A stretch of 64,000 nt of DNA from Pseudomonas sp. F(2018) (GTDB lineage: Bacteria; Pseudomonadota; Gammaproteobacteria; Pseudomonadales; Pseudomonadaceae), in contig NZ_SCOM01000001.1 of assembly GCF_005508865.1 (NCBI RefSeq), forward strand, positions 930,001 to 994,000. The letters are read 5' to 3'. The notes below the pieces were generated by a model. The model was given only the letters and a program-made list of their open reading frames with translations, had not been told where the DNA came from and did no database searches. The position numbers were made by a program, and so were the translations under genes. Position 1 is the first letter of the stretch. The number at the start of each line of letters is the position of its first letter. Below, in pieces: positions 32,865 through 57,651 of this stretch.

Positions 32865-35206
<2,342 letters not shown>

Positions 35207-35209
35207 GCC

Positions 35210-35794
35210 ATGAGCCACTATCAGCACCCCAGCGCCATCGTCGACGACGGCGCGCAGATCGGTGAAGGCTCGCGCGTCTGGCACTTCGTCCATGTCTGTG
35301 GCGGGGCGCGCATTGGTCAGGGCGTCTCGCTCGGGCAGAACGTCTTCGTTGGCAACAAGGTGGTCATCGGCGACAACTGCAAGATCCAGAATAACGTCTC
35401 GGTCTACGATGGTGTGACCCTGGAAGAGGGCGTGTTCTGCGGCCCGAGCATGGTTTTCACCAACGTCTACAACCCACGCTCGCTGATCGAGCGCAAGAGC
35501 GAGTACCGCGACACTCTGGTGAGAAAGGGCGCCACACTTGGTGCCAACTGCACCATTGTTTGCGGCGTGACCATCGGCGAGTTTGCCTTCGTTGGCGCCG
35601 GCGCTGTGATCAACAAGAATGTGCCTGCCTATGCCCTGATGGTCGGCGTGCCAGCACGGCAGATCGGCTGGATGAGCGAGTTTGGCGAACAGCTGGAACT
35701 GCCACTGGAAGGTGAGGGCAGCGCGCCATGCATCCACACTGGTGCGCAGTATGTTCTGCGTGGCCGTGTATTGAGCAAGGAGAGCGTGGCGTGA
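35210..35794 (+). CDS. wbpD: UDP-2-acetamido-3-amino-2,3-dideoxy-D-glucuronate N-acetyltransferase
   Basis: This 194-residue left-handed beta-helix acetyltransferase adds the acetyl group to the C3 amine made by WbpE. Hexapeptide repeats run from about residue 8 to 145 ([71 protein letters not shown]). Its stop overlaps the GTG of wbpE. The order B-D-E is the same as in P. aeruginosa O5. Confidence 0.93.
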
Positions 35795-38156: not shown

Positions 38157-38658
38157 TTTAAATAGGTTTTTGGTAAGGCTCCTGCTGGTGATCAATGCGG
38201 CCTACTGGCGAGTAATTTATCTGGAGTTCCGCAGGCGGTATGAAATATCACCTGAGTTTCGTTTTAATGGAAAAAATATTTTGCTCTATGGCAATGGGCG
38301 GATAGTGTTGGCGGGTAATAGCTATATTGGTGATAGCTCTACTGTGCAGTCTTCTGTGGATTGCAATGTTGAAATTGGTAGTGGCTGTCATATTTCTTCA
38401 AATGTTCGGATATTTACCGAGTCAATGAAGGCGGATAGCGATCTCCGGGTGAAGCCAGTGCCCTCAAAAACTGGTGACGTTGTAATTGGTGATGCTTGCT
38501 GGATTGGAGCTAATGTGCTGATAAATCCCGGTGTTTCCATTGGAGAAAATAGTGTCGTAGGAGCGAATAGTGTAGTGGTTCGAGACATTCCGCCAAATGA
38601 AATTTGGGGCGGTGTTCCGGCGAAGCTCATTAGAAAGAAGCTTCCTTCAGCAATTTGA
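38146..38658 (+). CDS. Hexapeptide-repeat acyltransferase, probably O-acetyltransferase
   Basis: This is a 170-residue left-handed beta-helix enzyme with repeats IVLAGNSYIGDSSTVQSSVDCNVEIGSGCHIS and GDVVIGDACWIGANVLINPGVSIGENSVVGANSVVV, ending GGVPAKLIRKK as in the WbbJ/maltose acetyltransferase group. An N-terminal hydrophobic stretch (LVRLLLVINAAYW) may sit on the membrane. It overlaps the end of wzx. It likely acetylates an O-unit sugar, or could add a second N-acyl group; the substrate cannot be told. The gene is AT-rich like wzx. Confidence 0.8.
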   Translation: MWVSLNRFLVRLLLVINAAYWRVIYLEFRRRYEISPEFRFNGKNILLYGNGRIVLAGNSYIGDSSTVQSSVDCNVEIGSGCHISSNVRIFTESMKADSDLRVKPVPSKTGDVVIGDACWIGANVLINPGVSIGENSVVGANSVVVRDIPPNEIWGGVPAKLIRKKLPSAI

Positions 38659-38698: not shown

Positions 38699-39838
38699 AT
38701 GATTCCATACGGTCGACAAAATATAAGTGATGACGACATCGCCGCAGTGGTCGATGTCCTGCGTTCGGAATGGCTGACCCAGGGGCCGGGTATCGCCAGC
38801 TTCGAGCAGGCCGTTGCCGCGGCCTGTCAGGCGCAGCACGCGGTGGCGGTAAGCAACGCTACTGCGGCTCTGCACATTGCCTGTCTGGCGCTGGATGTCG
38901 GTCCGGGGGACTTGGTCTGGACCAGCCCTAATACCTTTGTCGCCAGTGCCAATTGCGCGCGCTACTGCGGCGCTGATGTGGACTTCGTCGACATCGATCC
39001 GCAAACGCTCAACATCAGCGTGGAGCGCCTGGCCGAGAAGCTGGCGGTAGCCCGCCTGGCCGGGCGCCTGCCGAAGGTGGTGATCCCGGTGCATTTTGCT
39101 GGGCGCAGTTGCGATATGCGCGCGATCGGGCAGTTGGCCCGGGAGTATGGCTTTCGCGTGATCGAAGATGCTTCGCATGCCGTGGGGGCGAGCCATGACG
39201 GTGTACAGGTGGGTGCCTGTCAGTACAGCGACATCACCGTGTTCAGCTTTCATCCGGTAAAGATCATCACCACGGGCGAGGGCGGCATGTTGCTGTGCAA
39301 CGACACCGCGCTGGCGAAGCGCCTGGTGCGCTTGCGTACCCATGGCATCGCCCAGGGCAGCGACGAGCTGGTGAGTACGCCGCAGGGCCCTTGGGAATAC
39401 CAGCAGATAGAGTTGGGCTTCAACTACCGCATGACCAATCTGCAGGCTGCGCTGGGGCAGAGCCAGCTGGGGCGTCTGCCGCAGTTCATTGCCAGACGGC
39501 GGGAGCTGGTGAGGCAGTACCATGAACTGCTGGTTGACTTGCCCATCGTCTTGCCGCAGCCGAGCGCAGAGTCGGCCTGGCATCTGTATCCGATTCGTGT
39601 GGCGGCGGAGCGGCGTCTTGAGGTGTTTTCCCGTTTGCGTGCCGCGGATGTGTGGGTGCAGGTGCACTACATCCCCGTGCATACCCAGCCCTATTACCGC
39701 AATCTGGGTTTCAAGACGGGTGACTTCCCGCAGGCGGAGCGTTATTTCGCTGAAGCCTTCAGCCTGCCGTTGTTCTACGACCTGACCGATGAAGAGCAGC
39801 GGTGCGTCGTCGATCTGCTGCGTGAGGCCTTGTCTTGA
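38699..39838 (+). CDS. pseC: UDP-4-amino-4,6-dideoxy-N-acetyl-beta-L-altrosamine transaminase (PseC)
   Basis: This 379-residue PLP enzyme adds the C4 amine in pseudaminic acid synthesis. It opens MIPYGRQNISDDDI, typical of PseC, and binds PLP through Lys188 in SFHPVKIITTGEGGM. FNYRMTNLQAALGQSQL is also conserved. The substrate is the 4-keto sugar normally made by PseB, which is absent from the window. The gene is preceded by a 40-base AT-rich gap and returns to high GC. Confidence 0.9.
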   Translation: MIPYGRQNISDDDIAAVVDVLRSEWLTQGPGIASFEQAVAAACQAQHAVAVSNATAALHIACLALDVGPGDLVWTSPNTFVASANCARYCGADVDFVDIDPQTLNISVERLAEKLAVARLAGRLPKVVIPVHFAGRSCDMRAIGQLAREYGFRVIEDASHAVGASHDGVQVGACQYSDITVFSFHPVKIITTGEGGMLLCNDTALAKRLVRLRTHGIAQGSDELVSTPQGPWEYQQIELGFNYRMTNLQAALGQSQLGRLPQFIARRRELVRQYHELLVDLPIVLPQPSAESAWHLYPIRVAAERRLEVFSRLRAADVWVQVHYIPVHTQPYYRNLGFKTGDFPQAERYFAEAFSLPLFYDLTDEEQRCVVDLLREALS

Positions 39839-40533
39839 ACGTCGCGGTCATTCCGGCGCGAGGCGGCAGCAAGCGCATTCCGCGCAAGAACATCAAGACC
39901 TTCTGCGGTCGTCCCATGATCGCCTGGTCGATCCAGGCGGCGCAGCAGAGCGGTCTTTTCGAGCGGATCATCGTGTCTACCGACGATGAGGAGATCGCTG
40001 AGGTGGCGCGTGCGTGGGGTGCCGAAACGCCATTCATACGTCCGCCAGAGCTGTCTGACGACTATGCCGGTACCACCGAGGTGGTCGCCCATGCCTCCCG
40101 ATGGCTCGAGGCCCAGAGCCAGGCTTTGGCTGCGGTCTGCTGCATCTATGCCACCGCGCCGTTGATCCTCACGGACGACCTCAGGCGCGGCCTCGAGGTT
40201 TTGCAATCGGGCGATTGGGCATATGCTTTCTCGGTCGCGGAGTTTTCGCCGTCGGTTTATCGCGCCTTCCAGGCGTTGCCCGAAGGTGGACTCGCTATGC
40301 TGTTTCCAGAGTACTTTTCCACACGCTCCCAGGATTTGCCCGTGGCTCTGCATGATGCCGCGCAGTTTTACTGGGGGCGCCCAGGCGCCTGGACGCAGGG
40401 GCTGAGGATTTTCGATCGCCACTCGATGCCTGTCACCATTCCGCGCTGGAGGGTGCAGGACATCGATGACATGGACGATTGGATTCGCGCTGAAATGATC
40501 TTCAAACAAATGATGAGTGACCAGACACAATGA
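39835..40533 (+). CDS. pseF: Pseudaminic acid cytidylyltransferase (PseF)
   Basis: This 232-residue enzyme activates pseudaminic acid with CTP. It begins NVAVIPARGGSKRIPRKNIKTFCGRPMIAW, the CMP-sugar synthetase signature, and has IVSTDDEEIAEVA and AAQFYWGRPGAW, which fits PseF rather than NeuA. The TTG at 39835 is the only start close to the family N-terminus and lies in the pseC stop overlap. Its stop overlaps the methylase ATG. Confidence 0.9.
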   Translation: MNVAVIPARGGSKRIPRKNIKTFCGRPMIAWSIQAAQQSGLFERIIVSTDDEEIAEVARAWGAETPFIRPPELSDDYAGTTEVVAHASRWLEAQSQALAAVCCIYATAPLILTDDLRRGLEVLQSGDWAYAFSVAEFSPSVYRAFQALPEGGLAMLFPEYFSTRSQDLPVALHDAAQFYWGRPGAWTQGLRIFDRHSMPVTIPRWRVQDIDDMDDWIRAEMIFKQMMSDQTQ

Positions 40534-41162
40534 GTGCATCGGATTATGTGACGCCGCAGGAAGGCTTCTGGGCGGGCGAATTCGGCTCCGAGTACATCGG
40601 CCGCAACGACAGCCAGCAGTTGCTGGCTTCCAACCTGAATTTCTTCACCAAGGCGCTCAAGCAGGCGGGTCGGGTCGGCTCTGCCATCGAGTTTGGCGCC
40701 AACATCGGGATGAACCTGCGTGCCCTGCAGCTGCTTTATCCGGACGTGGCCCTGCACGGCGTGGAGATCAATCCCGACGCGGCGGCCCAGCTGCGCTTGC
40801 ACATCGGTCAGGACAACGTCTACGAAGGTTCGATCTTCAATTACCCAGTCGAGCAGCAGGTGGACCTTTCCCTGATCAAGGGTGTGCTCATCCACATCAA
40901 TCCGGACATGTTGCCGGTGGTCTACGAGAAGCTTTACACGGCGTCTCGCCGATTCGTGCTGGTATGTGAGTACTACAATCCCTCTCCCGTGGCGATTTCC
41001 TACCGCGGGCATGCCGACCGCTTGTTCAAGCGCGATTTTGCCGGCGAGATGATGGATAAGTATCCGGATCTGAAGCTGGTCGATTACGGCTTCGCCTATC
41101 GCCGCGATCCTGCGTTCCCGCAGGACGACATCACTTGGTTCCTAATGGAAAAAGGGGCCTGA
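40530..41162 (+). CDS. Pseudaminic acid biosynthesis-associated methyltransferase
   Basis: This 210-residue protein matches the methylase family found inside pseudaminic acid loci. Its start, TPQEGFWAGEFGSEYIGRND, is characteristic. A SAM-binding motif is seen at AIEFGANIGMNLRALQLL, then GVEINPDAAAQL and the late VCEYYNPSPVAISYRGHADRLFKRDFAGEM. It probably methylates a pseudaminic acid intermediate, possibly on the amidino nitrogen or a hydroxyl, since the amidotransferase gene follows directly. The exact substrate is unknown. Confidence 0.82.
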   Translation: MSASDYVTPQEGFWAGEFGSEYIGRNDSQQLLASNLNFFTKALKQAGRVGSAIEFGANIGMNLRALQLLYPDVALHGVEINPDAAAQLRLHIGQDNVYEGSIFNYPVEQQVDLSLIKGVLIHINPDMLPVVYEKLYTASRRFVLVCEYYNPSPVAISYRGHADRLFKRDFAGEMMDKYPDLKLVDYGFAYRRDPAFPQDDITWFLMEKGA

Positions 41163-41163
41163 G

Positions 41164-42312
41164 ATGCTCAAGTACTGTGTTCGTTGCGTGATGCCGCATA
41201 CCAAGCCGGATCTGCACATCGACGAAGAGGGCGTCTGCAACGCCTGTCGCTCCTACGAGAAGCGCAAGGAAGTCGATTGGGACCAGCGCAAGAGCGAGCT
41301 GCTGACGCTGCTGGAGAAATATCGACAGCATGGCAGCAACTGGGACTGCATCGTTCCGGTGAGCGGCGGCAAGGACAGCACCTATCAGGTGATCCGCATG
41401 TTGCAGCTGGGCCTCAATCCGCTGTGCGTGACCTCGACCACCTGTGACCTGAGCGAAATCGGCCGGCGCAATATCGAGAACCTGCAGCGCCTGGGTGTCG
41501 ACCATGTAGCGTTCACGCCCAACCCTCTGGTGCGCGCTAAGCTCAATCGCATCGGCCTGACCGAGGTCGGTGATATTTCTTGGCCGGAGCACGTCGGCAT
41601 TTTCACCATTCCGGTGCGTGCAGCGGTGCAGTACAACGTGCCCTTGATCGTCTGGGGCGAGAACTCGCAGAACGAGTATGGCGGCCCGGCAGCCGCGACC
41701 GAGAACAACACCTTGACCCGGCGCTGGCTGGAAGAGTTTGGCGGCCTGCTCGGCTTGCGGGTGTCGGACCTGTCCGAAACTTACGGCATCGAGCAGCGCC
41801 ATCTGTTGCCGTATCAGTACCCGTCCGACGAGGAGTTGCAGCGAGTCGGTGTGACCGGCCTATTCCTCGGCCATTACCTGCCATGGGACGGCCTGTCCAA
41901 CGCGCTGATCGCCCAGGCCAACGGCTTCGTCACTTACGACGAGCCGGTCGAAGGCTCGATGGTGAATTACGAGAACCTCGACAACCACCAGACCGGCATC
42001 CACGACTACTTCAAATATCTGAAGTTCGGCTTTTCCCGCGCGACCGACATTGCCTGCCTGCATGTGCGGCGTGGTCGTATCACGCGGCAGGACGCCATCG
42101 AGATCGTCAAGGCGCGTGACGGCAAGTTCCCCTGGAGCTACCTGGGCAAGCCGTTGGCCGAGATTCTCGAACCGCTGGAAATGACTACCGATGAGTTCAT
42201 CAAGATCTGCGACCGGTTCACCAACAAGAAGATCTTCAAGCGTGATGCCTCGGGTGCGTTGGTGAAGGATCGGCATGGCAACCTCGAGAAGCTGAACCAC
42301 GACAATCCATGA
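41164..42312 (+). CDS. pseA: N-acetyl sugar amidotransferase, PseA/WbuX-like (copy 1)
   Basis: This 382-residue PP-loop ATPase would turn an N-acetyl group into an acetamidino group using ammonia from HisH/HisF. It has an N-terminal zinc site (CVRCVMPHTKPDL and VCNACRSYE), the PP-loop VSGGKDSTYQ near residue 70, and WGENSQNEYGG. Its position inside the pse block, with its own hisH and hisF directly after, points to pseudaminic acid as the substrate (Pse5Ac7Am type). It is clearly different in sequence from the second copy at 49198. The pse name is by analogy with Campylobacter PseA. Confidence 0.85.
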   Translation: MLKYCVRCVMPHTKPDLHIDEEGVCNACRSYEKRKEVDWDQRKSELLTLLEKYRQHGSNWDCIVPVSGGKDSTYQVIRMLQLGLNPLCVTSTTCDLSEIGRRNIENLQRLGVDHVAFTPNPLVRAKLNRIGLTEVGDISWPEHVGIFTIPVRAAVQYNVPLIVWGENSQNEYGGPAAATENNTLTRRWLEEFGGLLGLRVSDLSETYGIEQRHLLPYQYPSDEELQRVGVTGLFLGHYLPWDGLSNALIAQANGFVTYDEPVEGSMVNYENLDNHQTGIHDYFKYLKFGFSRATDIACLHVRRGRITRQDAIEIVKARDGKFPWSYLGKPLAEILEPLEMTTDEFIKICDRFTNKKIFKRDASGALVKDRHGNLEKLNHDNP

Positions 42313-42932
42313 AGATCGCCATTGTCAACTACGGGATGGGCAATCTGGGCTCGGTGCGCCGGGCCTTCGAGGAGCTCGGTGCCGAGCCGTTGATCGCCAA
42401 TCACCCGTCGGCGCTTTATGACGTCAATCGCATCGTCCTGCCTGGCGTGGGTGCCTTTGCTGAGGGCATGGCGCACCTGGACCAGGGTGGCTGGAGCGAT
42501 GCGCTGCGCGAGCTGGTTGGCGAGCAGGGCAAACCTCTGCTGGGAATCTGTCTGGGTATGCAGATGCTCGCCGGGGAGGGTCACGAAGGTGGCGTCACGC
42601 CCGGTCTCGGCTTGATTCCCGGGCAGGTACGTCGCCTTGACGCTCTGGGCTGCACGCTGCGTATTCCTCATGTGGGTTGGAACGAGGTGCGTCACGCCGA
42701 GCAAGACGTTCTCTTCGAGGGCATTCCGTCCGCCGCAGATTTTTATTTCGTACACAGCTACGCCTTCGTTCCCGAGCAACGCGAGCACTTGCTCGCGAGC
42801 GTGCCTTACGGCGTCGACCTGACAGCGGCGGTGCGCCGTGATCATGTATTCGGCTGTCAGTTCCACCCGGAAAAAAGCTCCAAGGCCGGGCGCCGCCTGT
42901 TGCGCAACTTCCTGAGTTATTTGCCATGCTGA
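42309..42932 (+). CDS. hisH: HisH-type glutamine amidotransferase (copy 1)
   Basis: This 207-residue class I glutaminase releases ammonia from glutamine and passes it to the paired HisF-like protein. The nucleophile Cys81 is in LGICLGMQML, and the His/Glu pair in GCQFHPEKSS. It starts at ATG 42309, overlapping the amidotransferase stop by four bases, and ends inside the hisF start. It is dedicated to sugar amidation by context, not to histidine synthesis, because the chromosome should hold a normal his operon elsewhere. Confidence 0.9.
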   Translation: MKIAIVNYGMGNLGSVRRAFEELGAEPLIANHPSALYDVNRIVLPGVGAFAEGMAHLDQGGWSDALRELVGEQGKPLLGICLGMQMLAGEGHEGGVTPGLGLIPGQVRRLDALGCTLRIPHVGWNEVRHAEQDVLFEGIPSAADFYFVHSYAFVPEQREHLLASVPYGVDLTAAVRRDHVFGCQFHPEKSSKAGRRLLRNFLSYLPC

Positions 42933-43708
42933 AGGTTCGTGTCATACCGACCCTGCTCTGGAAGGGGCTGGGGTTGGTGAAAGGCGTTGGCTTCGATAGC
43001 TGGCGTCGGGTCGGGCCGGTACTGCCGGCGGTCAAGGTCTACAACGCGCGTGACGTCGACGAGCTCATCCTGGTGGATATCAACGCCACCCTGGAGAGCG
43101 AGTGGCCGGACCACGACTCGGTCAACGATTTTTCTGAGGAGTGTGCGGTGCCGCTGACCGTGGGTGGTGGCATCAGCAGTCTCGAGCAGGTTCTGGCGTT
43201 GCTGCATAGCGGGGCCGACAAGATCGCCATCAACAGTGCGGCCTATGCCGATCCGGGATTGATCAATGCAGCCGCGTCGCGTTTTGGCGCGCAATGCGTG
43301 GTCGCAAGCATTGATGTGCGCCGCCTGGACGATGGTGCCTACCGCTGCTTTAGTCACGCCGGCACCCAGGATACCGGCCGTGAGGTGCTGGCCTGGGCGT
43401 GCGAGCTGGCTGACCGTGGCGCCGGCGAGATACTGCTGACCTCCATCGAGCGTGACGGCAGCATGACCGGCTATGACCTGGCGCTGGTGGAGCGCGTCGC
43501 TCGTGCCGTGGATATTCCGGTGATCGCCTCCGGTGGCGCGGGGAACTACCAGCACATGATCGATGTGGTACAGCAGGCAGGCGCCTCGGCGGTTGCTGCC
43601 GCCAGCATCTTCCATTTCACCGAGCTGACGCCGGCCGGGGCCAAGACGGCGATGCAGGCTGCCGGCATTCCAGTGCGGCGCAATTTCGTCGGTGAGGCGA
43701 ATCCGTGA
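42926..43708 (+). CDS. hisF: HisF-like ammonia-channel protein for sugar amidation (copy 1, WbuZ type)
   Basis: This 260-residue (beta/alpha)8 barrel is homologous to imidazole glycerol phosphate synthase HisF. The N-terminal catalytic Asp of true HisF (PCLDV) is Leu here (IPTLLWKG), while the second Asp is kept (VASIDVRR), as is GAGEILLTSIERDGSMTGYDL. Loss of the first acid suggests it no longer makes the imidazole ring and instead conducts ammonia from HisH to the PseA/WbuX-like enzyme. Its stop overlaps the GTG of the pseG-pseH gene. Confidence 0.88.
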   Translation: MLKVRVIPTLLWKGLGLVKGVGFDSWRRVGPVLPAVKVYNARDVDELILVDINATLESEWPDHDSVNDFSEECAVPLTVGGGISSLEQVLALLHSGADKIAINSAAYADPGLINAAASRFGAQCVVASIDVRRLDDGAYRCFSHAGTQDTGREVLAWACELADRGAGEILLTSIERDGSMTGYDLALVERVARAVDIPVIASGGAGNYQHMIDVVQQAGASAVAAASIFHFTELTPAGAKTAMQAAGIPVRRNFVGEANP

Positions 43709-45219
43709 AAGTGGTTCTGCGCGTCGATGCCAGCGAGAAGATCGGAACCGGGCACTTCATGCGTTGCCTGACGCTGGCCGACACTCTACTCAAGCGCGGC
43801 GCGCAATGTGTGTTTCTCAGTCGTGATTTGCCTGTGCACCTGCAGCAATTGGTGCAGCGTCAGGGCCACGCCTTGCGGCATCTGCCTGTGCACGAGGCTG
43901 GCACCTGCGTGGGTGATCTGGCGCACTCGAGCTGGTTGGGTTGCGATCAAAACAGCGATGCCGTCGACTGCCTGACGGCGCTGGAGGGTCAGCTGCATGA
44001 TTGGCTGATCGTTGATCACTACGCATTGGACTGCCGTTGGGAAGCTCAGCTGCGCCAGGCCGCCAGACGCATACTGGTCATCGATGACTTGGCCGATCGT
44101 CGGCATGATTGCGACCTGCTGCTCGATCAGAACCTGTATCAGGACATGCAGACTCGCTACGCCGACAAGGTCCCGCACACCTGCCGTCTGTTGTTGGGCC
44201 CCAGGTTCGCCCTGCTGCGCGAGGAGTTCCGGCAATTGCGTGAAACCCTGGCCGGTCAGCGAACCCAGGTTAGGCGCGTGCTGGTGTTCTTTGGCGGCGT
44301 CGATGCTCGCAATTTCACCGGTCAGGCACTGGCGGTGCTGGCAGGCGTTGGTCAGGCCAGCTTCGAGGTGGACGTGGTGCTTGGCGCACAGCATCCGCAG
44401 CTTGTTGCCATCGAATCGTTGTGTCAGACCCAGGGTTATCGTTGCCATGTGCAGACCGCGCGAATGGCTGAGCTGATGGCGGGTGCCGATCTCGCCATCG
44501 GGGCGGGCGGTACCGCGACCTGGGAGCGTTGCAGCCTGGGATTGCCAACCCTGGCGCTGAGCAGTGCAGATAACCAGACGCGCCAGTTGGCCGATGCGGC
44601 TGCGCAGGGTCTGGTCTATGCGCCCGAGGTAGGTGCGGACGTGCAGGCGACCCTTGCCCTGCACTTGCCGGCGTTGCTGCACAACGCTGCCTTGCGGCAC
44701 TTGATCTCCCGCTCAGGCACGGCTGCAGTGGATGGCCTGGGCGCTCAGCGCCTGGCGACACGCATGGGCTGTAGTGGGCTTAGCCTGCGCGAGGCGTGTG
44801 CAGAAGACTCCGAGCATCTGTTCCGCTGGCGCAATCACCCCTCGATCCGCGCTGTCTCGCGCAACCATGACGAGATTGCCTGGGAAGACCACTGTCGTTG
44901 GTTCGCCGGTGTGCTTGGCGATACTCGGCGCAAGCTGCTGGTTGGCCTGCAGAGCGGGGTGCCCGTGGGTGTCGTACGCTTCGACATCGACGCTGAAAAG
45001 GCCGAAGTATCCATTTATCTCGTTCCCGAAGCGCAGGTGCGCTGTCGCGGGGGCGATCTGTTGCAAAGTGCGGAGGATTGGCTCATGGAGCATTGCCGCG
45101 AAGTGCGGCAGCTGCATGCGCAGGTCATGGGGGGCAACACTGTCTCCAAAGGGTTGTTCATGGCCGCAGGCTATGACGTCGACAACACGCTGTTTTCAAA
45201 GAAGCTGCATGAGCTATGA
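43705..45219 (+). CDS. pseG: Fused UDP-sugar hydrolase PseG and N-acetyltransferase PseH
   Basis: This 504-residue protein joins two pseudaminic acid steps. Residues 1 to about 345 match PseG, which removes UDP from UDP-2,4-diacetamido-trideoxy-altropyranose: KIGTGHFMRCLTLAD with catalytic His17, VIDDLADR, and GAGGTATWERCSLGLPTL. Residues about 350-504 form a GNAT domain (LREACAEDSEHLFRWRNHPSIR and EVSIYLVPEAQVRCRGG), which fits PseH, the 4-N-acetyltransferase. No separate pseH is seen, supporting this reading. Start is GTG 43705. The fusion is uncommon but known in some bacteria. Confidence 0.9.
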   Translation: MKVVLRVDASEKIGTGHFMRCLTLADTLLKRGAQCVFLSRDLPVHLQQLVQRQGHALRHLPVHEAGTCVGDLAHSSWLGCDQNSDAVDCLTALEGQLHDWLIVDHYALDCRWEAQLRQAARRILVIDDLADRRHDCDLLLDQNLYQDMQTRYADKVPHTCRLLLGPRFALLREEFRQLRETLAGQRTQVRRVLVFFGGVDARNFTGQALAVLAGVGQASFEVDVVLGAQHPQLVAIESLCQTQGYRCHVQTARMAELMAGADLAIGAGGTATWERCSLGLPTLALSSADNQTRQLADAAAQGLVYAPEVGADVQATLALHLPALLHNAALRHLISRSGTAAVDGLGAQRLATRMGCSGLSLREACAEDSEHLFRWRNHPSIRAVSRNHDEIAWEDHCRWFAGVLGDTRRKLLVGLQSGVPVGVVRFDIDAEKAEVSIYLVPEAQVRCRGGDLLQSAEDWLMEHCREVRQLHAQVMGGNTVSKGLFMAAGYDVDNTLFSKKLHEL

Positions 45220-46268
45220 CTGAATCAATCAAGATCGCAAACCGTCGCATCGGCCGTGGTCACGCGCCCTTCGTCATTGCCGAGATGTCCGGCAACCACA
45301 ATCAGTCGCTGGAGCGTGCACTTCAGATCGTCGAAGAGGCGGCCCGCACGGGTGCTCATGCGCTGAAGATCCAGACCTATACGGCGGACTCGATGACGCT
45401 GGATCTGGATGAGGGTGAGTTCCATATCAGTGATCCCAATAGCCTCTGGGCTGGCACCTCCCTGTACAAGCTCTATGGCGAGGCATTCACCCCCTGGGAA
45501 TGGCACAAGCCGATCTTCGACCGGGCGCGCGAGCTGGGCATGATCGCCTTCAGCACACCCTTCGATGACAAGGCCGTGGATTTTCTCGAGTCGCTGGACG
45601 TGCCGTGCTACAAGATCGCGTCCTTTGAGAACACCGACCTGCCGTTGATCTGCCGTGTGGCTGCGACCGGCAAGCCGATGATCATTTCCACCGGCATGGC
45701 CACGGTCGCCGAACTGGACGAGACCGTTCGTGCCGCGCGGCAGGCCGGTTGCAAGGACCTGATCCTGCTCAAGTGCACCAGTACCTATCCGGCATCGCCA
45801 GAGAACACCAACATCCTGACGATTCCGCATCTGCGCGAGCTGTTCGGCTGCGAAACCGGTCTTTCCGATCACACTATGGGCGTCGGCGTGTCCGTAGCGG
45901 CGGTGGCGCTGGGCGCAAGCGTGGTGGAGAAGCACTTCACTCTGAGCCGCGCCGAGGGGGGGGTTGACAGCGCTTTCTCCATGGAGCCGCAGGAGATGGC
46001 GCAGCTGGTCGTCGAAACCGAGCGCGCCTGGCAGTCGCTGGGACGCGTCAGCTATGGCGCTACCGCTGCCGAGGAAAAGAGCCGGGTGTTCCGCCGTTCG
46101 ATCTACGCCAGCGAAGACATCGCAGCCGGTGATCTGCTGTCGCCCTGCAATGTCCGCATCATTCGCCCGGGGCTCGGGTTGCCGCCGAAGTACTTCGAGC
46201 AGGTCATCGGCAAACGGGCCAAGCAGGCGATCAAGCGAGGCACCCCCATCAGTTGGGATCTCATCTAG
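45216..46268 (+). CDS. pseI: Pseudaminic acid synthase (PseI)
   Basis: This 350-residue NeuB-family enzyme condenses the hydrolysed altropyranose with phosphoenolpyruvate to form pseudaminic acid. FVIAEMSGNHNQSLERAL is the PseI form of the N-terminal motif (legionaminic and sialic synthases differ). KIASFENTDLPLI and GLSDHTMGVGVSVAAVALGA follow, and a C-terminal SAF (antifreeze-like) domain runs from about residue 290. ATG 45216 overlaps the pseG-pseH stop. The next gene starts inside the pseI stop. Confidence 0.94.
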   Translation: MTESIKIANRRIGRGHAPFVIAEMSGNHNQSLERALQIVEEAARTGAHALKIQTYTADSMTLDLDEGEFHISDPNSLWAGTSLYKLYGEAFTPWEWHKPIFDRARELGMIAFSTPFDDKAVDFLESLDVPCYKIASFENTDLPLICRVAATGKPMIISTGMATVAELDETVRAARQAGCKDLILLKCTSTYPASPENTNILTIPHLRELFGCETGLSDHTMGVGVSVAAVALGASVVEKHFTLSRAEGGVDSAFSMEPQEMAQLVVETERAWQSLGRVSYGATAAEEKSRVFRRSIYASEDIAAGDLLSPCNVRIIRPGLGLPPKYFEQVIGKRAKQAIKRGTPISWDLI

Positions 46269-47701
46269 TGACGCGGCCCAGTCTTGCCCAGTTGATCGAG
46301 ATCGAAAACGATCCGACGTTTCTCGAGTTTCGTTGTCCGCGCAGCGGCGTGTTGCTCTGGCCTCTGGTGCGTAATCAGTTCCTGCGCCAGCTGATTTCCG
46401 ATCTCTACTATCAGCAAGCACCTCTGGTTTCTGCTGTGCCTGCGGTGCCGCGTCGACAGGCGCTGGGGGCGCTTGCGCAAGTACTGGGCCACAATCTGCA
46501 GCAGGGCCGGATGCGCGGTGAGGTGTTGGTGATCGGCACTGGTGCGGGGCATTTTCAGCGCGAAGGCCGCTGGTTCAACCGCATCACCGATTACCTCGTG
46601 CAGGAGTCTCCAGCAGACACCGTGATAGTCGAAGGCGTGGTGGATTGGCACGTACCGCATCCGCGCTGGAACCAGCAAGTCGCCTACTGGCTGCCCTGGC
46701 AGGGGGCGATCACTGTGGCGGGTCGCTTGCTGACGCGCGACCACCACGTGGCAACCGCGCGTGAACTGCTCGAATATGCCAAGCGTCGGGCCTCGCAATT
46801 GCTGGGGCTGACCATCGCCGACTCGAATATGGACATGCTGGTCGGTATGCTGGCGCGCAAGCTGGCGCGACTGCCCGTGATGCAATTTGCCTATCGCCGT
46901 CTGCTGGAACGGGTACAGCCGCGCCTGGTACTGCTGGAACAGGCCTGTTACGGGGACTTTGCGCCCCTCAATCAGGTCGCGCGCGAGATGGGCATCCGCG
47001 TGGCTGAGCCCCAGCACGGCATGGTCTCCGGCGGCCACGACGCCTATTGCTATGCACCTGTTTTGCGCGAGAGTGAGGCGTACCGTGTCTGCCTGCCGCA
47101 TGACTTTCTGAGTTACGGCGCTTGGTGGAGCAGCCAGATCAACGTGCCGGTGCACAAATGGGTGATCGGCAACCCGCATTACAGCGAGCAGCGTCGATTC
47201 ATTTCGCCGTTACAGGGAGAACAGAACGATATCCTGCTGCTTGGCGATGGTATCGAATTTTCACTCTATCTGGCGCTGGCCCAGGAGCTGGCGCAGTTGC
47301 TGCGTGGCCGCTACCGCATTGTGCTGCGGCCGCATCCGCTGGAGCGTGCCGAGGTCCAGTTGCGTTTTCCCGAAGGGCGCGCAGGCGATGTGCTGATTGA
47401 TCACAATCGGGATATTTACAGCTCGTTTGCCACGGCTCACGCGGTCGTCGGTGAGGTTTCCACCGGCCTGTTCGAGGCGCAGGGAATAGCGGGCCGCGTA
47501 ATGCTCTGGGAGACCGCCAAGGCGCGCTTCAGTTATCCGCAGCATCCATTCTGTGGCTTCTCTGACGCTCGGGCGCTGGTGGAGGCGCTGCAGGCACCCC
47601 GGGCTGGGCAAACAGAGGCGCTCGCGGAGGAGATCTGGGCGCCTGGCTGGGCCGGCAATTACCGAAAGTATCTGGCCCATGCCCTGGGAGCGTCGGGCTG
47701 A
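46268..47701 (+). CDS. Probable glycosyltransferase of the surface-carbohydrate type
   Basis: This 477-residue protein has no clear named homologue that I recognise, but the C-terminal half looks like a GT-B capsule/LPS transferase: PQHGMVSGGHDAY, GNPHYSEQRRF, IVLRPHPLER and VVGEVSTGLFEAQGIAG. It has no membrane segments. I chose GTG 46268, which overlaps the pseI stop; a TTG at 46253 is also in frame. Placement directly after pseI makes it the best candidate for the enzyme that attaches pseudaminic acid. This is inference. Confidence 0.65.
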   Translation: MTRPSLAQLIEIENDPTFLEFRCPRSGVLLWPLVRNQFLRQLISDLYYQQAPLVSAVPAVPRRQALGALAQVLGHNLQQGRMRGEVLVIGTGAGHFQREGRWFNRITDYLVQESPADTVIVEGVVDWHVPHPRWNQQVAYWLPWQGAITVAGRLLTRDHHVATARELLEYAKRRASQLLGLTIADSNMDMLVGMLARKLARLPVMQFAYRRLLERVQPRLVLLEQACYGDFAPLNQVAREMGIRVAEPQHGMVSGGHDAYCYAPVLRESEAYRVCLPHDFLSYGAWWSSQINVPVHKWVIGNPHYSEQRRFISPLQGEQNDILLLGDGIEFSLYLALAQELAQLLRGRYRIVLRPHPLERAEVQLRFPEGRAGDVLIDHNRDIYSSFATAHAVVGEVSTGLFEAQGIAGRVMLWETAKARFSYPQHPFCGFSDARALVEALQAPRAGQTEALAEEIWAPGWAGNYRKYLAHALGASG

Positions 47702-47812
47702 GCCAACGTCGGGCGGCCAAGGATCTGCAAACAGCGTATCCTTGCGCCCCTAAATTGTGCGGGTCTGCCGTGGGCCGGCAATCCGTGAAGTCACTTCGAG
47801 CGGTAGCGAATC

Positions 47813-48433
47813 TTGGCCGTACAGACAATTTCAGTGATCGACTATGGCTGCGGCAATCTGGCTTCGGTCGTCAACATGATCCAGCACGTGGGTGGTGAGG
47901 CGCGCATCATCCGCACTCCAGATGAGCTGGACAGTGCGGCCAAGCTCGTTTTGCCGGGCGTTGGCGCGTTTGACCACGGCATCGGCAGCTTGCGTCAGGG
48001 TGGCTGGATCACGCCGCTGGAGCAGGCCGTGTATCAGCGCAAGGTACCCCTCATGGGTATCTGTCTGGGCATGCAGTTGCTGACTCGCGGCAGCGAAGAA
48101 GGCCAAGAGCCTGGGCTCGGCTGGGTTGACGCGCAGGCAAGACGCTTTCGTCCCAGCGACCCGCGGCTGAAGGTACCGCACATGGGCTGGAACGAGGTGC
48201 GACAGGTGCGCGCGGACGAGCTGTTACCGGCATCGGCCAGTCCGCGGCGTTTCTACTTCGTGCATGCCTACCGGGTCGAATGCGCTGACCCTGCGGATGT
48301 GTTGCTGGAATGCGAGTACGGGGAAACCTTCGTGGCCGCCTTTCGCCATGCCAACATCTGGGGCTTCCAGTTTCACCCGGAGAAGAGCCATCGATTCGGC
48401 ATGGAACTCTTCCGCCGCTTCCTGGAGGTATGA
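47813..48433 (+). CDS. hisH: HisH-type glutamine amidotransferase (copy 2)
   Basis: This 206-residue glutaminase is the second HisH in the cluster. The nucleophile Cys84 is in MGICLGMQLL and the His/Glu pair in GFQFHPEKSH. The TTG at 47813 gives the expected first strand (TISVIDYGCGN); a GTG at 47834 would cut it. It follows a 111-base gap, so this group may have its own promoter. It pairs with the next gene to supply ammonia to the WbpG-like enzyme. Confidence 0.88.
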   Translation: MAVQTISVIDYGCGNLASVVNMIQHVGGEARIIRTPDELDSAAKLVLPGVGAFDHGIGSLRQGGWITPLEQAVYQRKVPLMGICLGMQLLTRGSEEGQEPGLGWVDAQARRFRPSDPRLKVPHMGWNEVRQVRADELLPASASPRRFYFVHAYRVECADPADVLLECEYGETFVAAFRHANIWGFQFHPEKSHRFGMELFRRFLEV

Positions 48434-48434
48434 G

Positions 48435-49208
48435 GTGCTCAAGCATCGTGTAATACCGGCCCTGCTGTTGCGCGACGGCGGCTTGGTAAAAACCCAGAAG
48501 TTTGGCAAACACAAGTACATCGGCGATCCGATCAACGCCATCCGCATCTTCAATGAGAAGGAAGTGGACGAACTGGTGTTGCTCGACATCGATGCCAGCC
48601 TTCGGGGTCGTGAGCCCGACTATGCGCTGATCGAGAGCATTGCAGCCGAGTGCTTCATGCCGCTTGGCTACGGTGGCGGGATATCCACGATCGAGCAGGC
48701 GCGGCGAATCTTCTCTTCCGGCGTGGAGAAAGTCGTGCTGCAGACGTCGGCGCTGCAGAATCCGGCGCTGGTCACAGAGATCGCCCAGCGCTTCGGCAGC
48801 CAGAGCGTGGTTGTTTCCATTGATATCAAGCGTGACTGGCTGGGGCGTTATCGTCTGTGGTCTTCGTCTTCCCGTCGGGCCTTGTCCGCAGACTGGCTTC
48901 AAGCGCTCCGTTCGATCGTATCCGCCGGCGCTGGCGAGGTCCTGCTCAACTCCGTGGATCGTGACGGAATGCAGCAGGGATATGATCTGCGTCTGATCAA
49001 GGCCGCTGCTGATGCAGTAAATGTGCCGCTGATAGCCCTGGGTGGTGCTGCAGAGCTGGGACACTTCGTGGAAGCGATCGATGCGGGTGCTTCTGCGGTC
49101 GCTGCTGGCAGCCTGTTCGTGCTGCAGGGGCCGCATCGTGCGGTGTTGATCAGCTACCCCAATTATTCAGAGCTCGAGTCGCTTTTCAGAGGTAAGGATG
49201 TTTCCTAA
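48435..49208 (+). CDS. hisF: HisF-like ammonia-channel protein for sugar amidation (copy 2, WbuZ type)
   Basis: This 257-residue TIM barrel is the second HisF homologue in the cluster. As in copy 1, the first catalytic Asp of HisF is replaced by Leu (IPALLLRDGGLVK), while SIDIKRDWLG keeps the second. GAGEVLLNSVDRDGMQQGYDL is conserved. It is more like HisF2 of the P. aeruginosa O5 cluster than copy 1. GTG 48435 is the start, one base after the hisH stop. The wbpG ATG lies inside its 3' end. Confidence 0.88.
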   Translation: MLKHRVIPALLLRDGGLVKTQKFGKHKYIGDPINAIRIFNEKEVDELVLLDIDASLRGREPDYALIESIAAECFMPLGYGGGISTIEQARRIFSSGVEKVVLQTSALQNPALVTEIAQRFGSQSVVVSIDIKRDWLGRYRLWSSSSRRALSADWLQALRSIVSAGAGEVLLNSVDRDGMQQGYDLRLIKAAADAVNVPLIALGGAAELGHFVEAIDAGASAVAAGSLFVLQGPHRAVLISYPNYSELESLFRGKDVS

Positions 49209-50319
49209 AGAACGCAGGATCTGTTCGCGGTGTGTGATGGACGATAGCGCATCCGCAATCACTTTCGACGACGCGGGCGTTTGCAACTACTGCACTTATT
49301 TCCAGCAGCGCGTAAACGGTGTGGTCTTCGCCCCCGAGCACGAGCGCGCGGAGCAGCGCAGGGTTTTCGTGGAGAAAGTGAAGAAGGCTGGGAAGGGCAA
49401 GAAATATGACTGCATCATCGGTCTCTCCGGTGGAGTAGACAGCTCCTATGTGTTGCATCTGGCCCTGAGCGAAGGCTTGCGGCCGCTGGCCGTGCACATG
49501 GACAACAACTGGAATTCCGAGTTGGCGGTCAACAACATCAAGAATCTGGTCACCCGTCTCGGCGTTGATCTGTACACCCACGTTATCGACTGGCCTGAGT
49601 ACAAGGGCCTGATGCAGTCATTCTTCGACGCCGATGTCATCGATGTGGAGCTGCTTTACGACAACGCGATGCTGGCGGTGAACTACGAGCAGGCGCGGCG
49701 CTACGGTATCAAGTACATCCTGTCGGGAAGCAACTCCGCGACCGAAGGAATGCCCATGCCGGAGGGCTGGAACTGGCGCAAGTGGGACAAGCGCAACATC
49801 AAGGCGATCGCTCGGCGCAATTCAGTGCGGATCCGTACCTTCCCGATCATGGGAACGCTTGGCTACGTGTATAACCGTGTCGTACGTGGAATTCAGTGGG
49901 CGTCATTTCTCGACCTCTACGACTACCAGAAGGAAGCAGCGCTGGAGCTGCTCGAGCAGAAGTACGCCTACAAGCGTTATCCCTACAAGCACTACGAATC
50001 GGTCTTCACACGCTTCTATCAGGGCTACATCCTTCCAGAAAAATTCGATGTGGATAAACGCAAGCTGCATCTCTCGACGCTGGTTATGAGCGGCCAGATG
50101 ACTCGCGATCAGGCGCTTGCCCATCTCCAGGGTTCTCCCTACGCCTCGCCGGAGGAGCTCGACAGGGACCGCAAGTATTTCCTCAAGAAGATGGGCTGGT
50201 CTGAAGGCCAACTGGATGAATATCTGCGTCGACCAGGCAAGCCGCACGATGCTTATCCCAGCGAGCGCTTCGCCTGGGATTTCATTCGCAAGATCTATCA
50301 GATGCGGCGTACTTCCTGA
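49198..50319 (+). CDS. wbpG: N-acetyl sugar amidotransferase WbpG (copy 2)
   Basis: This 373-residue PP-loop enzyme matches WbpG of P. aeruginosa, which with HisH2 and HisF2 makes the acetamidino group on the diacetamido-uronic acid of O5. N-terminal zinc Cys pairs are in ICSRCVMDD and VCNYCTYF, the PP-loop is LSGGVDSSYV near residue 80, and SGSNSATEGMPMP and YKHYESVFTRFYQGYILPEKF are family landmarks. With wbpABED in the same cluster, the likely substrate is the GlcNAc3NAcA residue. Confidence 0.92.
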   Translation: MFPKERRICSRCVMDDSASAITFDDAGVCNYCTYFQQRVNGVVFAPEHERAEQRRVFVEKVKKAGKGKKYDCIIGLSGGVDSSYVLHLALSEGLRPLAVHMDNNWNSELAVNNIKNLVTRLGVDLYTHVIDWPEYKGLMQSFFDADVIDVELLYDNAMLAVNYEQARRYGIKYILSGSNSATEGMPMPEGWNWRKWDKRNIKAIARRNSVRIRTFPIMGTLGYVYNRVVRGIQWASFLDLYDYQKEAALELLEQKYAYKRYPYKHYESVFTRFYQGYILPEKFDVDKRKLHLSTLVMSGQMTRDQALAHLQGSPYASPEELDRDRKYFLKKMGWSEGQLDEYLRRPGKPHDAYPSERFAWDFIRKIYQMRRTS

Positions 50320-50367: not shown

Positions 50368-51564
50368 TTGAATGTTCTGTTTCTGCATCCTGCTGCGGCT
50401 TTCGGTGGCGCATCCAAAAGCCTGATCGAGCTCTACAGGCTGCTACAAGATGGTGGGGTCCGAGGGACGGTTCTCACTCCTGCCGGAGCCGTTTGCCAAT
50501 CCTTCGAAAGAGCCGGCATGCGGGTTCATCCGATAAAGGGACTCAGTCAGTTCGACAACACTCGTTATGGCTACTATCGCAAGGTTCGCTGGTTGATCCT
50601 GTTACGCGAGTTACTCCTGCTGCCGTTTGCGCTGGCGGGGCTGTGGCGGCTGCGGCGCGAACCCTTCGACCTGATCCATATCAACGAAATCACCCTGTTG
50701 CCGTTGGGTGTCGTCGCCAAACGGCTGCTACGCGTTCCGATGGTGGTGCATGTTCGCTCGCTGCAGCGTAAGCCGGGCTCCGGCTTGCGAACCCGTTGGC
50801 TTAACGGGCTGCTGCGTCGATACGCCGATGCGGTGGTGGCGATAGATCACACTGTCGCCGCCACGCTGGAGCCGGAGCTTCCGTTGAGCATCGTCCACAA
50901 TGGCCTCGAGGTAGCCAGTCAACCAGTCGAGAGGCTCCCTGGTGACGGAGTTGGACCGGTCAAGGTCGGCTTCCTCGGCGTGCTGATTCCGCTCAAGGGC
51001 ATCTTCGAGCTGGTCGAGGCGATGCGCATCCTGAAATCCCGTGGCGTTTCCATCCAGTGCCTCGTAGCGGGTGAGAACGCGCGGGAGATATCCGGACTCA
51101 AGGCCTGGATTCTGCGCAAGTTCGGTTTTGCGCGAGATGTCCGGAGTGAGCTGGAGAGACTGATCTGCCGCGAGGGCCTGGAAGACCGGGTCAAGCTGCT
51201 CGGCTTCGTGAGCGATGTCCGCGAACTTTATCCACAACTGGATATTCTCTGCTTTCCCTCGCATCTGGATGCAGCGGGGCGTCCGGTCTTCGAGGCGGCG
51301 TTCTACTCGGTGCCTAGCGTCGTGGCCGTGAGCGATCCATTGCCAGACGCTTTATTACACGGGGTGACAGGGCTGGCGGTGCCGACACCAGACCCGCTGT
51401 TGATCGCCGACGCGTTGCAGCGGCTTGCGGAAGATCCCGACCTTCGCCGTCAGCTTGGATGTCAGGCGAAGAGTTGGGCCGAGGAAACCTTCGCGATCGA
51501 CGTCAATGCGGCGCGCATGCTTGACCTCTATCACCGCGTACTTTCATCAAATGCGAGTAGCTGA
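50368..51564 (+). CDS. GT4-family glycosyltransferase
   Basis: This 398-residue GT-B enzyme of family 4 starts at TTG 50368, with AAGGG eight bases upstream; no ATG is near. It opens NVLFLHPAAAFGGASKSLIEL and has VKVGFLGVLIPLKGIFEL, VKLLGFVSDVRELYPQLD and the donor-site AGRPVFEAAFYSVPSVV. The sugar donor is unknown. Being next to wbpG, it may transfer the diacetamido-uronic acid or its amidino form. Confidence 0.85.
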   Translation: MNVLFLHPAAAFGGASKSLIELYRLLQDGGVRGTVLTPAGAVCQSFERAGMRVHPIKGLSQFDNTRYGYYRKVRWLILLRELLLLPFALAGLWRLRREPFDLIHINEITLLPLGVVAKRLLRVPMVVHVRSLQRKPGSGLRTRWLNGLLRRYADAVVAIDHTVAATLEPELPLSIVHNGLEVASQPVERLPGDGVGPVKVGFLGVLIPLKGIFELVEAMRILKSRGVSIQCLVAGENAREISGLKAWILRKFGFARDVRSELERLICREGLEDRVKLLGFVSDVRELYPQLDILCFPSHLDAAGRPVFEAAFYSVPSVVAVSDPLPDALLHGVTGLAVPTPDPLLIADALQRLAEDPDLRRQLGCQAKSWAEETFAIDVNAARMLDLYHRVLSSNASS

Positions 51565-51567
51565 GCC

Positions 51568-52776
51568 ATGCGCATCCTGATGCTCTCCCAGTACTTTTGG
51601 CCGGAAAGCTTCATCATCAATGACATCGTGCGTACGCTCGACGAGCAGGGCCACGAGGTGGTCGTCGCTGCTGGCAAGCCCAACTATCCCGATGGCAAGG
51701 TCTTTGATGGCTACCGCGCTGCGGGTACCCAGCGCGAACGCTATCTGGGGCGCATCGAGGTACTACGGGTGCCGCTGTGGCCGCGCGGGCAGGGTGGGGC
51801 GAAGAATCTGATCCTCAATTACCTGTCCTTTGTACTTAGCGGTCTGCTGTACCTGCCCTGGATGCTGCGGGGGCGCGAGTTCGATGCCATCCTGGTGTTC
51901 GCCCCCTCGCCGATCACCCAGGCGATTCCGGCGATCCTGCTCAAGTGGCTGAAGAAGGCCAGGCTGGCCCTGTGGGTCCAGGACCTGTGGCCGGAGAGCC
52001 TCTCGGCCACCGGTTTCGTGCGCAATCCGTACCTGTTGCGTGCGGTGGGCTGGATGGTGCGTGCCATCTACCGCTCGTGCGACACCCTGCTGGTGCAGTC
52101 GCGGGCGTTCGTCGAGCCGGTGGCGCAGTATGCCGACCGGGCGAAGATCCAGTACTACCCCAATTCCATGGACGTCAGCAGCAAGGCCGTGGTGCCGGTG
52201 CCTGGCGAGCTGCTCGAACTGCTCGAGCAGCACTTCTGCGTGGTGTTCGCCGGCAACCTCGGCACCGCCCAGGCGCTCGACACCCTGGTGCAGGCGGCGG
52301 TCCACCTGCGCGACGAGCCGCGTATCCGGCTGGTGCTGGTGGGCAGTGGCAGCCGCCTGGCCTGGCTCAAGACCCAGCAGCAGGCGCTGGGGCTGGACAA
52401 CCTGGTGCTGCCGGGGCGTTTCCCGATGGAGGCCATGCCGCAGATCTTCGAGCGTGCTTCGGCCCTGCTGGTGTCGCTGAACGACGAGCCGGCCTTTGCC
52501 CAGACCATTCCCAGCAAGATCCAGGCGTACCTGGCGGCCGGACGGCCGATCCTGGCCTGCATAAACGGCGAGGGTGCCCGGGTGGTCTGCGAGGCGCGCG
52601 GCGGGCTGGCCTCGCCGGCCGAGCAGGTGCTGCCGCTGGTAGCCAACATCCGCTGCATGCAGGCGCTCGGTGCCAGCGAGCGCGCCGCAATGGGCACCTC
52701 CGGGCGTGCCTATTTCGATGCCCACTTCGAGATGACCAGCCAGGTGCGCCGACTGGTCGAGCTGCTGCAGTGCTGA
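51568..52776 (+). CDS. wbuB: WbuB-like GT4 glycosyltransferase (probable 2-acetamido-2,6-dideoxy-L-hexose transferase)
   Basis: This 402-residue enzyme resembles WbuB/WbjE, the L-FucNAc transferases of E. coli O26 and P. aeruginosa O11. Typical features are ILMLSQYFWPESFIINDI, GKPNYPDGKVFDGY, VQDLWPESLSATG and FAQTIPSKIQAYLAAGRPIL. The RmlD-like, wbjB and wbjD genes further on would make the matching UDP-L-sugar. High GC and core-like codon use set it apart from the AT-richer flippase region. Confidence 0.87.
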   Translation: MRILMLSQYFWPESFIINDIVRTLDEQGHEVVVAAGKPNYPDGKVFDGYRAAGTQRERYLGRIEVLRVPLWPRGQGGAKNLILNYLSFVLSGLLYLPWMLRGREFDAILVFAPSPITQAIPAILLKWLKKARLALWVQDLWPESLSATGFVRNPYLLRAVGWMVRAIYRSCDTLLVQSRAFVEPVAQYADRAKIQYYPNSMDVSSKAVVPVPGELLELLEQHFCVVFAGNLGTAQALDTLVQAAVHLRDEPRIRLVLVGSGSRLAWLKTQQQALGLDNLVLPGRFPMEAMPQIFERASALLVSLNDEPAFAQTIPSKIQAYLAAGRPILACINGEGARVVCEARGGLASPAEQVLPLVANIRCMQALGASERAAMGTSGRAYFDAHFEMTSQVRRLVELLQC

Positions 52777-57539: not shown

Positions 57540-57651
57540 TTTCGTAGCCCGGCCGATTGCCGGCGCTTTCATGCTCTTTTCGGTCCCTTCCCGAAAGGGA
57601 GAGGGCAGGTTCATTCAGCCCTCGGGCCGCGTTTACGTTCAGGAAGGTTCT

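Follow-up and report, generated by a model that had tools for sequence, protein, structure and literature searches.

Why does a single O-antigen locus carry two complete sets of genes for the amidation of N-acetyl sugars? The question is raised by a 64,000-nucleotide stretch of Pseudomonas sp. F(2018) (contig NZ_SCOM01000001.1; hereafter the window, to whose positions all coordinates refer), which belongs to a genome of 4.74 Mb in 10 contigs. Its Pseudomonas-type O-antigen locus, running from wbpABDE (32865-36879) through wbpL-wbpM (60570-63771), contains one set in the order amidotransferase-hisH-hisF (41164-43708; set 1) and another in the order hisH-hisF-amidotransferase (47813-50319; set 2). 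The best explanation, given a probability of about 70%, is that the locus specifies a single O-antigen in which two acidic sugars are amidinated, with set 1 acting on pseudaminic acid (Pse) and set 2 converting UDP-GlcNAc3NAcA into GlcNAc3NAmA. This explanation builds on observations of the gene content and intactness of the two sets, the phylogeny of their amidotransferases and the co-inheritance of their components.

Two intact and divergent amidation sets

The initial annotation of the window described two complete sets 4 kb apart, and their coordinates, gene orders and a gap of 4.1 kb were all confirmed. Both amidotransferases exceed the curated cut-off (203.2 bits) of the N-acetyl sugar amidotransferase family TIGR03573 (Table 1), of which they are the only two matches genome-wide. 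Both keep the tetracysteine (CxxC...CxxC) and SGGxDS PP-loop motifs, as defined in passages of PMC10607449. The two HisH proteins retain the invariant Cys, His and Glu of the alignment. Both HisF proteins have Leu at the alignment position of an early Asp found in E. coli HisF and in the genome's own third HisF, a residue which we take to be catalytic in histidine synthesis. As this third HisF, encoded on a different contig, is itself over its family cut-off (386.8 bits), a role in histidine biosynthesis is rejected for the HisF pair of the two sets. Set 2 HisF passes the AglZ/HisF2 model; set 1 HisF misses the cut-offs of both WbuZ (Table 1) and HisF2 (253.5 bits against 310), though it probably works like WbuZ/HisF2 despite these scores. 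Judged from their sequences, both sets are intact.

The sets are also clearly diverged, as first proposed. Set 1 and set 2 share 30% identity between amidotransferases (over 175 amino acids only), 43% between HisH proteins and 40% between HisF proteins; together with the amidotransferase tree described below, these values reject a recent duplication. It could be supposed that only a single acetamidino group is formed, the other set being silent or its product never entering the polymer, and activity is indeed not readable from sequence. However, all six genes are open with their motifs kept, and both sets are kept together in five genomes, making this reading improbable.

Phylogeny of the amidotransferases

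From 123 amidotransferase-type open reading frames, six short pieces were removed to leave 117 rows; removal of 20 near-duplicates and off-type rows gave 97 rows for a quick tree, and removal of a further 23 long or unstable rows gave 74 for a careful tree. Phylogeny had been suggested as a means of telling the two amidotransferases apart, and they fall into separate, strongly supported superclades (support 100/100), one of nonulosonic-acid contexts (superclade I) and the other of hexose-type contexts. A tree forced to unite the two clades of the window's proteins is worse by 136.65 log units and is rejected (p = 4.5e-46). Eight rows make up the clade of set 1 (support 99/92) and 13 rows that of set 2 (100/99). 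The third clade, the FucNAm clade with its 26 rows, includes E. coli O145 WbuX; FnlA is encoded nearby in 21 of the 26, usually in the order amidotransferase-hisH-hisF-fnlA. The fourth clade (eight rows) shows hisH-hisF-amidotransferase after wbp genes, with a WbpI-like epimerase near six rows; it is called WbpG-like from this gene order and neighbour because the sequences of PAO1 WbpG and Campylobacter PseA are absent from the tree. One of these epimerases was tested, that of locus L045, and scores 437 bits against the WbpI-type structure 8sxv. Set 2 lies outside the WbpG-like clade in the best tree, and an approximately unbiased (AU) test does not reject joining the two (p = 0.15).

Substrate of set 1

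The most likely substrate of set 1 is pseudaminic acid, because all eight rows of its clade lie in pse blocks. In the window, set 1 is itself embedded in such a block (pseC, pseF, methylase, set 1, pseG-pseH fusion, pseI). The clade includes two class-level genomes with no wbp genes in view (L107, and L117 on a 5 kb contig). Outside the double loci, the nearest relatives of set 1 occupy pse blocks that either have wbp genes and no set 2 in view (G073, G293) or show no wbp genes at all in the stretch seen (G674, and G553 on a 5 kb contig); the element common to the loci of these relatives is pse. Set 1 would convert one N-acetyl group of a pseudaminic acid intermediate into an acetamidino group. 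The group may lie at C5 or C7, and published names of the Campylobacter sugar differ.

A gene for a pse-associated methylase directly precedes set 1 and is also present in L150-L152 and not seen in G262. This gene occurs near amidotransferases in L109, L116, L123 and L150-L152, all loci selected for having an amidotransferase. In a sample of genomes drawn independently of the amidotransferase, it was found in nine of 322 (window included), and five of these nine (G479, G503, G614, G683, G705) are absent from the genomes with any TIGR03573 match. For this reason, a strict link, with the enzyme as N-methylase of the acetamidino group, is rejected.

Amidinated Pse might also be destined for another target, for example flagellin as in Campylobacter, in which case the two sugars would never share a repeat. 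Flagellar amidinated Pse is described in the abstract of PMC3068675. Only one PseI match in the genome reaches E <= 1e-60, and the pse block would therefore supply Pse for any use. However, wzx precedes the block and the wbpL/wbpM end of the O-antigen locus follows it, and the genes across 38699-47701 each abut or overlap their neighbour, making a separate destination for Pse very improbable.

Substrate of set 2

Three candidate substrates of set 2 are encoded in the locus, namely GlcNAc3NAcA, L-FucNAc (via fnlBAC, 56676-59782) and Pse, and assignment by elimination suggests that set 2 likely acts on the WbpABDE product. Pseudomonas chlororaphis 14D6 (G071, L153) combines set 2 with wbpABDE and fnl genes, and neither pse nor leg genes were detected across its fetched locus; its genome encodes PseI elsewhere, outside that locus. 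Genome G389 combines set 2 with wbpABDE and legionaminic-type genes, with no fnl genes in the fetched locus (no FnlA match above 31% except wbpM). Each of G389, G071 and G262 carries wbpA, B, D and E. Whole-genome searches for FnlA at E <= 1e-30 returned only a WbpM-like match in Pseudomonas sp. SJZ074 and no match in a Planctomycetaceae genome (L159). Conversely, a clear WbpE (56-91% identity) is encoded in seven of the eight genomes of set-2 relatives searched (strain KBW05 not among them), and matched coordinates place it upstream of set 2 on the same contig in six (L150, L151, L152, L153, L155, L157); the seventh is Halomonas. The eighth, the Planctomycetaceae genome, has WbpE matches of only 40-41%, and the genes close to its set 2 include one that is WbpE-like (39%) and one that is WbpB-like (27%). 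Across these comparisons, the candidates narrow to the WbpABDE product as the likely substrate.

In strain HAR-UPW-AIA-41 (L157), set 2 shares 97% protein identity with that of the window, and WbpE, further upstream, 82%. DNA similarity ends inside hisH2 (window ~47997; L157:8800), and the 8.6 kb upstream of hisH2 has no DNA similarity to the window's pse block and holds other nonulosonic-acid genes. By this comparison, the upstream nonulosonic-acid block is exchanged, with set 2 and fnl retained.

Set 2 would amidinate the 3-N-acetyl group of UDP-GlcNAc3NAcA, and its product is likely GlcNAc3NAmA in the gluco rather than the manno form, since the locus shows no C2 epimerase that would act on the uronic acid. 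No WbpI was found in the window, where the sole WecB-type gene found, fnlC, is CapG-like (Table 1); the best PDB match of FnlC is 4hwg (528 bits), named only as a general 2-epimerase.

The initial annotation named pseudaminic acid and GlcNAc3NAcA as the amidinated sugars, both of which are supported, and left fnlB-fnlA-fnlC and L-FucNAc unweighed. With fnlBAC present in the locus, set 1 could act on pseudaminic acid and set 2 on L-FucNAc, yielding L-FucNAm in the manner of E. coli O145 WbuX and Pseudomonas aeruginosa O12 LfnA. Passages of PMC10607449 describe WbuX as making L-FucNAm, and a title cited in PMC11637443 states that lfnA and wbuX are required for this sugar. However, O145 WbuX falls in the FnlA-associated FucNAm clade, the AU test rejects joining set 2 to it (p = 0.018, for groups picked after the tree was viewed) and two set-2 genomes have no FnlA match. 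L-FucNAc is thus judged the less likely substrate, and this pairing of sugars is unlikely.

That choice of groups counts against the assignment of set 1 to Pse and set 2 to the WbpABDE product, as do the naming of the WbpG-like clade and several further observations. The substrates of both subclades are putative assignments from gene context. The pse-context amidotransferases do not form one clade: L116, L124 and L128 lie elsewhere in superclade I, and four more rows lie in the hexose superclade (L067, L069 and L083 in the FucNAm clade, L092 near the WbpG-like clade). Seven of the 13 set-2 rows adjoin fnl genes, and nine of the 13 have D-QuiNAc/D-FucNAc genes (wbpV, L or M) in view, making that sugar a possible substrate. 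Halomonas DQ26W, which has set 2 and no fnl genes in the fetched stretch, encodes a 68% FnlA on another contig number and thus does not discriminate between substrates.

Ammonia supply and co-inheritance

In each set, HisH would free the ammonia of glutamine, a HisF-like barrel that probably lacks cyclase activity would hand it on, and the ATP-dependent amidotransferase would activate and amidate the acetamido carbonyl. The proposal that each amidotransferase has its own ammonia supply is consistent with the co-inheritance of matching hisH and hisF genes, assessed by pairing each amidotransferase with the closest same-strand hisF and hisH no more than 3.5 kb away. A hisF2-like neighbour accompanies all 65 paired type-2 amidotransferases (six more have no neighbour) and a hisF1-like neighbour 33 of 36 of type 1 (16 more have none). 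Overall, hisF matches in 98 of 101 cases and hisH in 103 of 103 (66/66 type-2, 37/37 type-1), counts that include near-duplicates and one locus twice (L086 = L153) and that reflect a two-way choice rather than a full tree. These pairings show that hisH and hisF follow the amidotransferase split and that the sets tend to move as modules.

Distribution of double loci

Among 398 genomes of the same genus, TIGR03573 matches at E <= 0.001 occur in 58 and matches over the cut-off in 49. Two complete sets in one locus were found in four of the 398, namely the window, G262, which has the window's arrangement, and G156 and G159, in which a legionaminic-type and a FucNAm-type set lie ~12 kb apart. G164 carries, 6 kb from its set, another amidotransferase-like gene that scores lower and has no hisH/hisF pair to itself in the fetched stretch. 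A scan of named genomes adds three carriers of the window's double locus, namely Atopomonas hussainii (strain JCM 19513), Pseudomonas mangrovi (strain TC11) and a metagenome-assembled genome (MAG) labelled Candidatus Accumulibacter sp. 66-26. Among 398 genomes of the family, the set-1 profile at E <= 1e-100 matches four (window, G262, G1040, G790), the latter two being counted as the P. mangrovi and Atopomonas loci rather than as additional genomes. The window's pair is thus present in five genomes, window included, with identities to the window of 94-99% for the set 1 amidotransferase and 87-97% for that of set 2. Searches beyond these genomes gave no match to set 1 in E. coli (blastn) and 14 plasmid records for set 2 (tblastn; best 44% identity).

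The contig from the Candidatus Accumulibacter sp. 66-26 MAG (L150:1-13540) matches the window over 13.5 kb at 92.7% DNA identity, which suggests a mislabelled bin or a recent transfer. In Pseudomonas sp. KBW05, a partial set-1-like amidotransferase (32%; L154:1-495) lies at the edge of the strain's set-2 locus, which may represent a third type of double set. Three further loci (L094 in G452, L121 in G696 and L161 in a Treponema MAG) each have two nearby amidotransferase genes with at most one hisH/hisF pair detected.

FnlA as a probable shared dehydratase

No PseB over the family cut-off (407.75 bits) was found in the genome, the best match being FnlA (323.5 bits), followed by WbpM. FnlA and PseB presumably make the same intermediate, and since no PseB reaches the cut-off, FnlA probably takes the place of PseB and serves the Pse pathway as well as that of L-FucNAc. 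All eight fetched loci combining pse and fnl (window, G262, L150-L152, G187, G177, G025) show no PseB-like gene. The L150-L152 stretches begin inside pseC, so whole genomes were searched instead with FnlA at E <= 1e-30, yielding only FnlA and a WbpM-like match. Among nine fetched loci with pse and no fnl, a PseB-like gene (38-45%) lies beside or near pseC in six (G073, G293, G674, G679, G483, G730); none is in view in G507, and G553 and G549 are too short or cut.

A model of the repeat

Substrates and products are here predicted from sequence, as is the presence of both sugars in one repeat, which the common locus suggests. WbpM, WbpV and WbpL would begin the chain with a QuiNAc/FucNAc-type sugar, and three candidate transferases (the 482-residue protein beside PseI and the two glycosyltransferases of family 4 (GT4) after set 2) would match the three sugars Pse, GlcNAc3NAmA and L-FucNAc. 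FnlA would provide a common C5-inverted 4-keto intermediate for L-FucNAc and Pse. With L-FucNAc and the first sugar remaining N-acetylated, the two carboxylates and two amidinium groups would leave the repeat electrically balanced. The full proposal of a charge-balanced zwitterion with amidinium on Pse and GlcNAc3NAcA only, sets selected together and an FnlA feeding two pathways is tentative, with the odds leaning slightly against it.

Layout of the locus

All genes listed in Table 1 lie on the plus strand. The wbp genes named in the initial annotation are present, though in the order A-B-D-E and not ABED as first given. A gap of 111 bases precedes set 2; downstream of this set come two GT4 genes, a pair of membrane-protein genes and the fnlB-fnlA-fnlC block. 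A single fused gene encodes PseG together with a PseH-like acetyltransferase. At E <= 0.001 the 482-residue protein matches nothing in Pfam or NCBIfam, its PDB matches are chance ones, and its predicted structure (mean pLDDT 40.3) was not used; it is conserved in the other four double loci, lying beside pseI in L037 and L150-L152. Promoter and terminator scans yielded no more than scans of shuffled sequence.

Table 1. Genes of the O-antigen locus, with family or structure matches in bits.
Gene or product	Position	Strand	Evidence
wbpA-like nucleotide-sugar 6-dehydrogenase	32865..34178	+	TIGR03026 416.6, cut-off 189.8
wbpB, 3-dehydrogenase	34256..35206	+	PDB 3oa2 WbpB 571.5
wbpD, 3-N-acetyltransferase	35210..35794	+	PDB 3mqg lipopolysaccharide acetyltransferase 312.5
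wbpE, 3-aminotransferase	35728..36879	+	PDB 3nyu WbpE 632.9
Wzx-like flippase	36876..38156	+	HfsF/WZX_like models, below cut-offs; ~10 hydrophobic stretches
Hexapeptide acyltransferase (start inferred)	38074..38658	+	Pfam Hexapep 53.5
pseC	38699..39838	+	TIGR03588 534.5, cut-off 423.5
pseF	39835..40533	+	TIGR03584 305, cut-off 205.7
Pseudaminic-acid-associated methylase	40530..41162	+	TIGR03587 303.4, cut-off 112.05
Set 1 amidotransferase (putative pseudaminic-acid type, WbuX-type)	41164..42312	+	TIGR03573 339; 8-row clade in pse blocks
Set 1 HisH-like glutaminase	42309..42932	+	TIGR01855 228; Cys/His/Glu kept
Set 1 HisF-like ammonia-channel subunit	42926..43708	+	WbuZ 287, just under cut-off 299.7; early Asp to Leu
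PseG-PseH fusion	43705..45219	+	TIGR03590 305 at 1-293; TIGR03585 66.5 at 362-495, below cut-off 93.1
pseI, pseudaminic acid synthase	45216..46268	+	TIGR03586 502, cut-off 340.25
482-residue protein, candidate Pse transferase	46253..47701	+	No family match; conserved next to pseI elsewhere
Set 2 HisH-like glutaminase	47813..48433	+	TIGR01855 219.3; Cys/His/Glu kept
Set 2 HisF-like ammonia-channel subunit (start inferred)	~48435..49208	+	NF038364 AglZ/HisF2 357.4, cut-off 310
Set 2 amidotransferase (putative WbpABDE-product type)	49198..50319	+	TIGR03573 258; own 13-row clade
GT4 glycosyltransferase a	50368..51564	+	Pfam Glycos_transf_1 87.7
GT4 glycosyltransferase b (WcaI family)	51568..52776	+	NF007640 147.9, below cut-off 276; Pfam Glyco_trans_1_4
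Membrane protein	52826..55243	+	~20 hydrophobic stretches; no Pfam match
Membrane protein, candidate Wzy	55240..56652	+	~10 hydrophobic stretches; no Pfam match
fnlB-like reductase	56676..57539	+	RmlD-type, 89.9, below cut-off 224.05; sits in fnl block
fnlA, C5-inverting 4,6-dehydratase (start inferred; reading frame opens 57454)	57655..58662	+	TIGR04130 579.7, below cut-off 730; PDB 4j2o 525.7, CapE 3vvb 493.4
fnlC, UDP-L-FucNAc 2-epimerase, not WbpI	58631..59782	+	CapG 7ya2 419 vs 211 for WbpI-type 8sxv
wbpV-like reductase	59785..60747	+	Short-chain dehydrogenase/reductase family, below cut-offs
wbpL-like initiating transferase (start uncertain)	60570..61787	+	WecA/MraY family, below cut-offs
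wbpM-like 4,6-dehydratase	61780..63771	+	PseB/FnlA-like C-terminal and sugar-transferase-like N-terminal parts, below cut-offs

Comparison with known systems and implications

Set 2 resembles the system of P. aeruginosa O5 (PAO1), compared here by gene content and order, in its WbpABDE pathway and in the order hisH-hisF-amidotransferase (presumably hisH2-hisF2-wbpG in PAO1). The window differs from O5 in showing no WbpI, so that a gluco product is expected, in the separate clade formed by set 2 and in the presence of a second, Pse-type set. WbpG is described in passages of PMC10607449 as making the C3 group of ManNAc3NAmA. The E. coli O145 WbuX-WbuY-WbuZ and P. aeruginosa O12 LfnA systems share protein families and fnl genes in the locus with the window; the O145 system differs from set 2 in its gene order, amidotransferase-hisH-hisF-fnlA, and in its clade. 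Campylobacter PseA and legionaminic-type amidotransferases, compared by description, also include Pse amidination, though there it is flagellar and here in an O-antigen locus; acetamidino derivatives of both Pse and legionaminic acid in C. jejuni are mentioned in the abstract of PMC3068675 and a passage of PMC7371886. The capsule genes of Vibrio vulnificus SUKU_G1 combine PseB/C/A/F/G/I with genes called wbpB, D and E, but in the passages of PMC11676643 a single PseA is listed and the product is predicted from annotation. Pseudomonas G156 and G159 also have two sets per locus, but of legionaminic and FucNAm types. The enzyme types are already known. In the titles and passages of the open-access literature searched, neither the combination of two full sets in one O-antigen locus nor a repeat with two acetamidino sugars, each made by its own set, was found.

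The tree provides a usable sequence split between nonulosonic-acid and hexose amidotransferase types, and the set-2 clade offers a candidate enzyme for a gluco-configured di-N-acetylated uronic acid. Acetamidino groups add positive charge to otherwise acidic O-antigens, and for P. aeruginosa O12 the authors propose that the acetamidino group contributes to adhesion (PMC11637443). If the proposed repeat is correct, its matching of each carboxylate by an amidinium would offer a natural test of the reason for sugar amidination in bacteria, and the organism would display an unusual charge-balanced cell coat, with both sets selected together to neutralize it.

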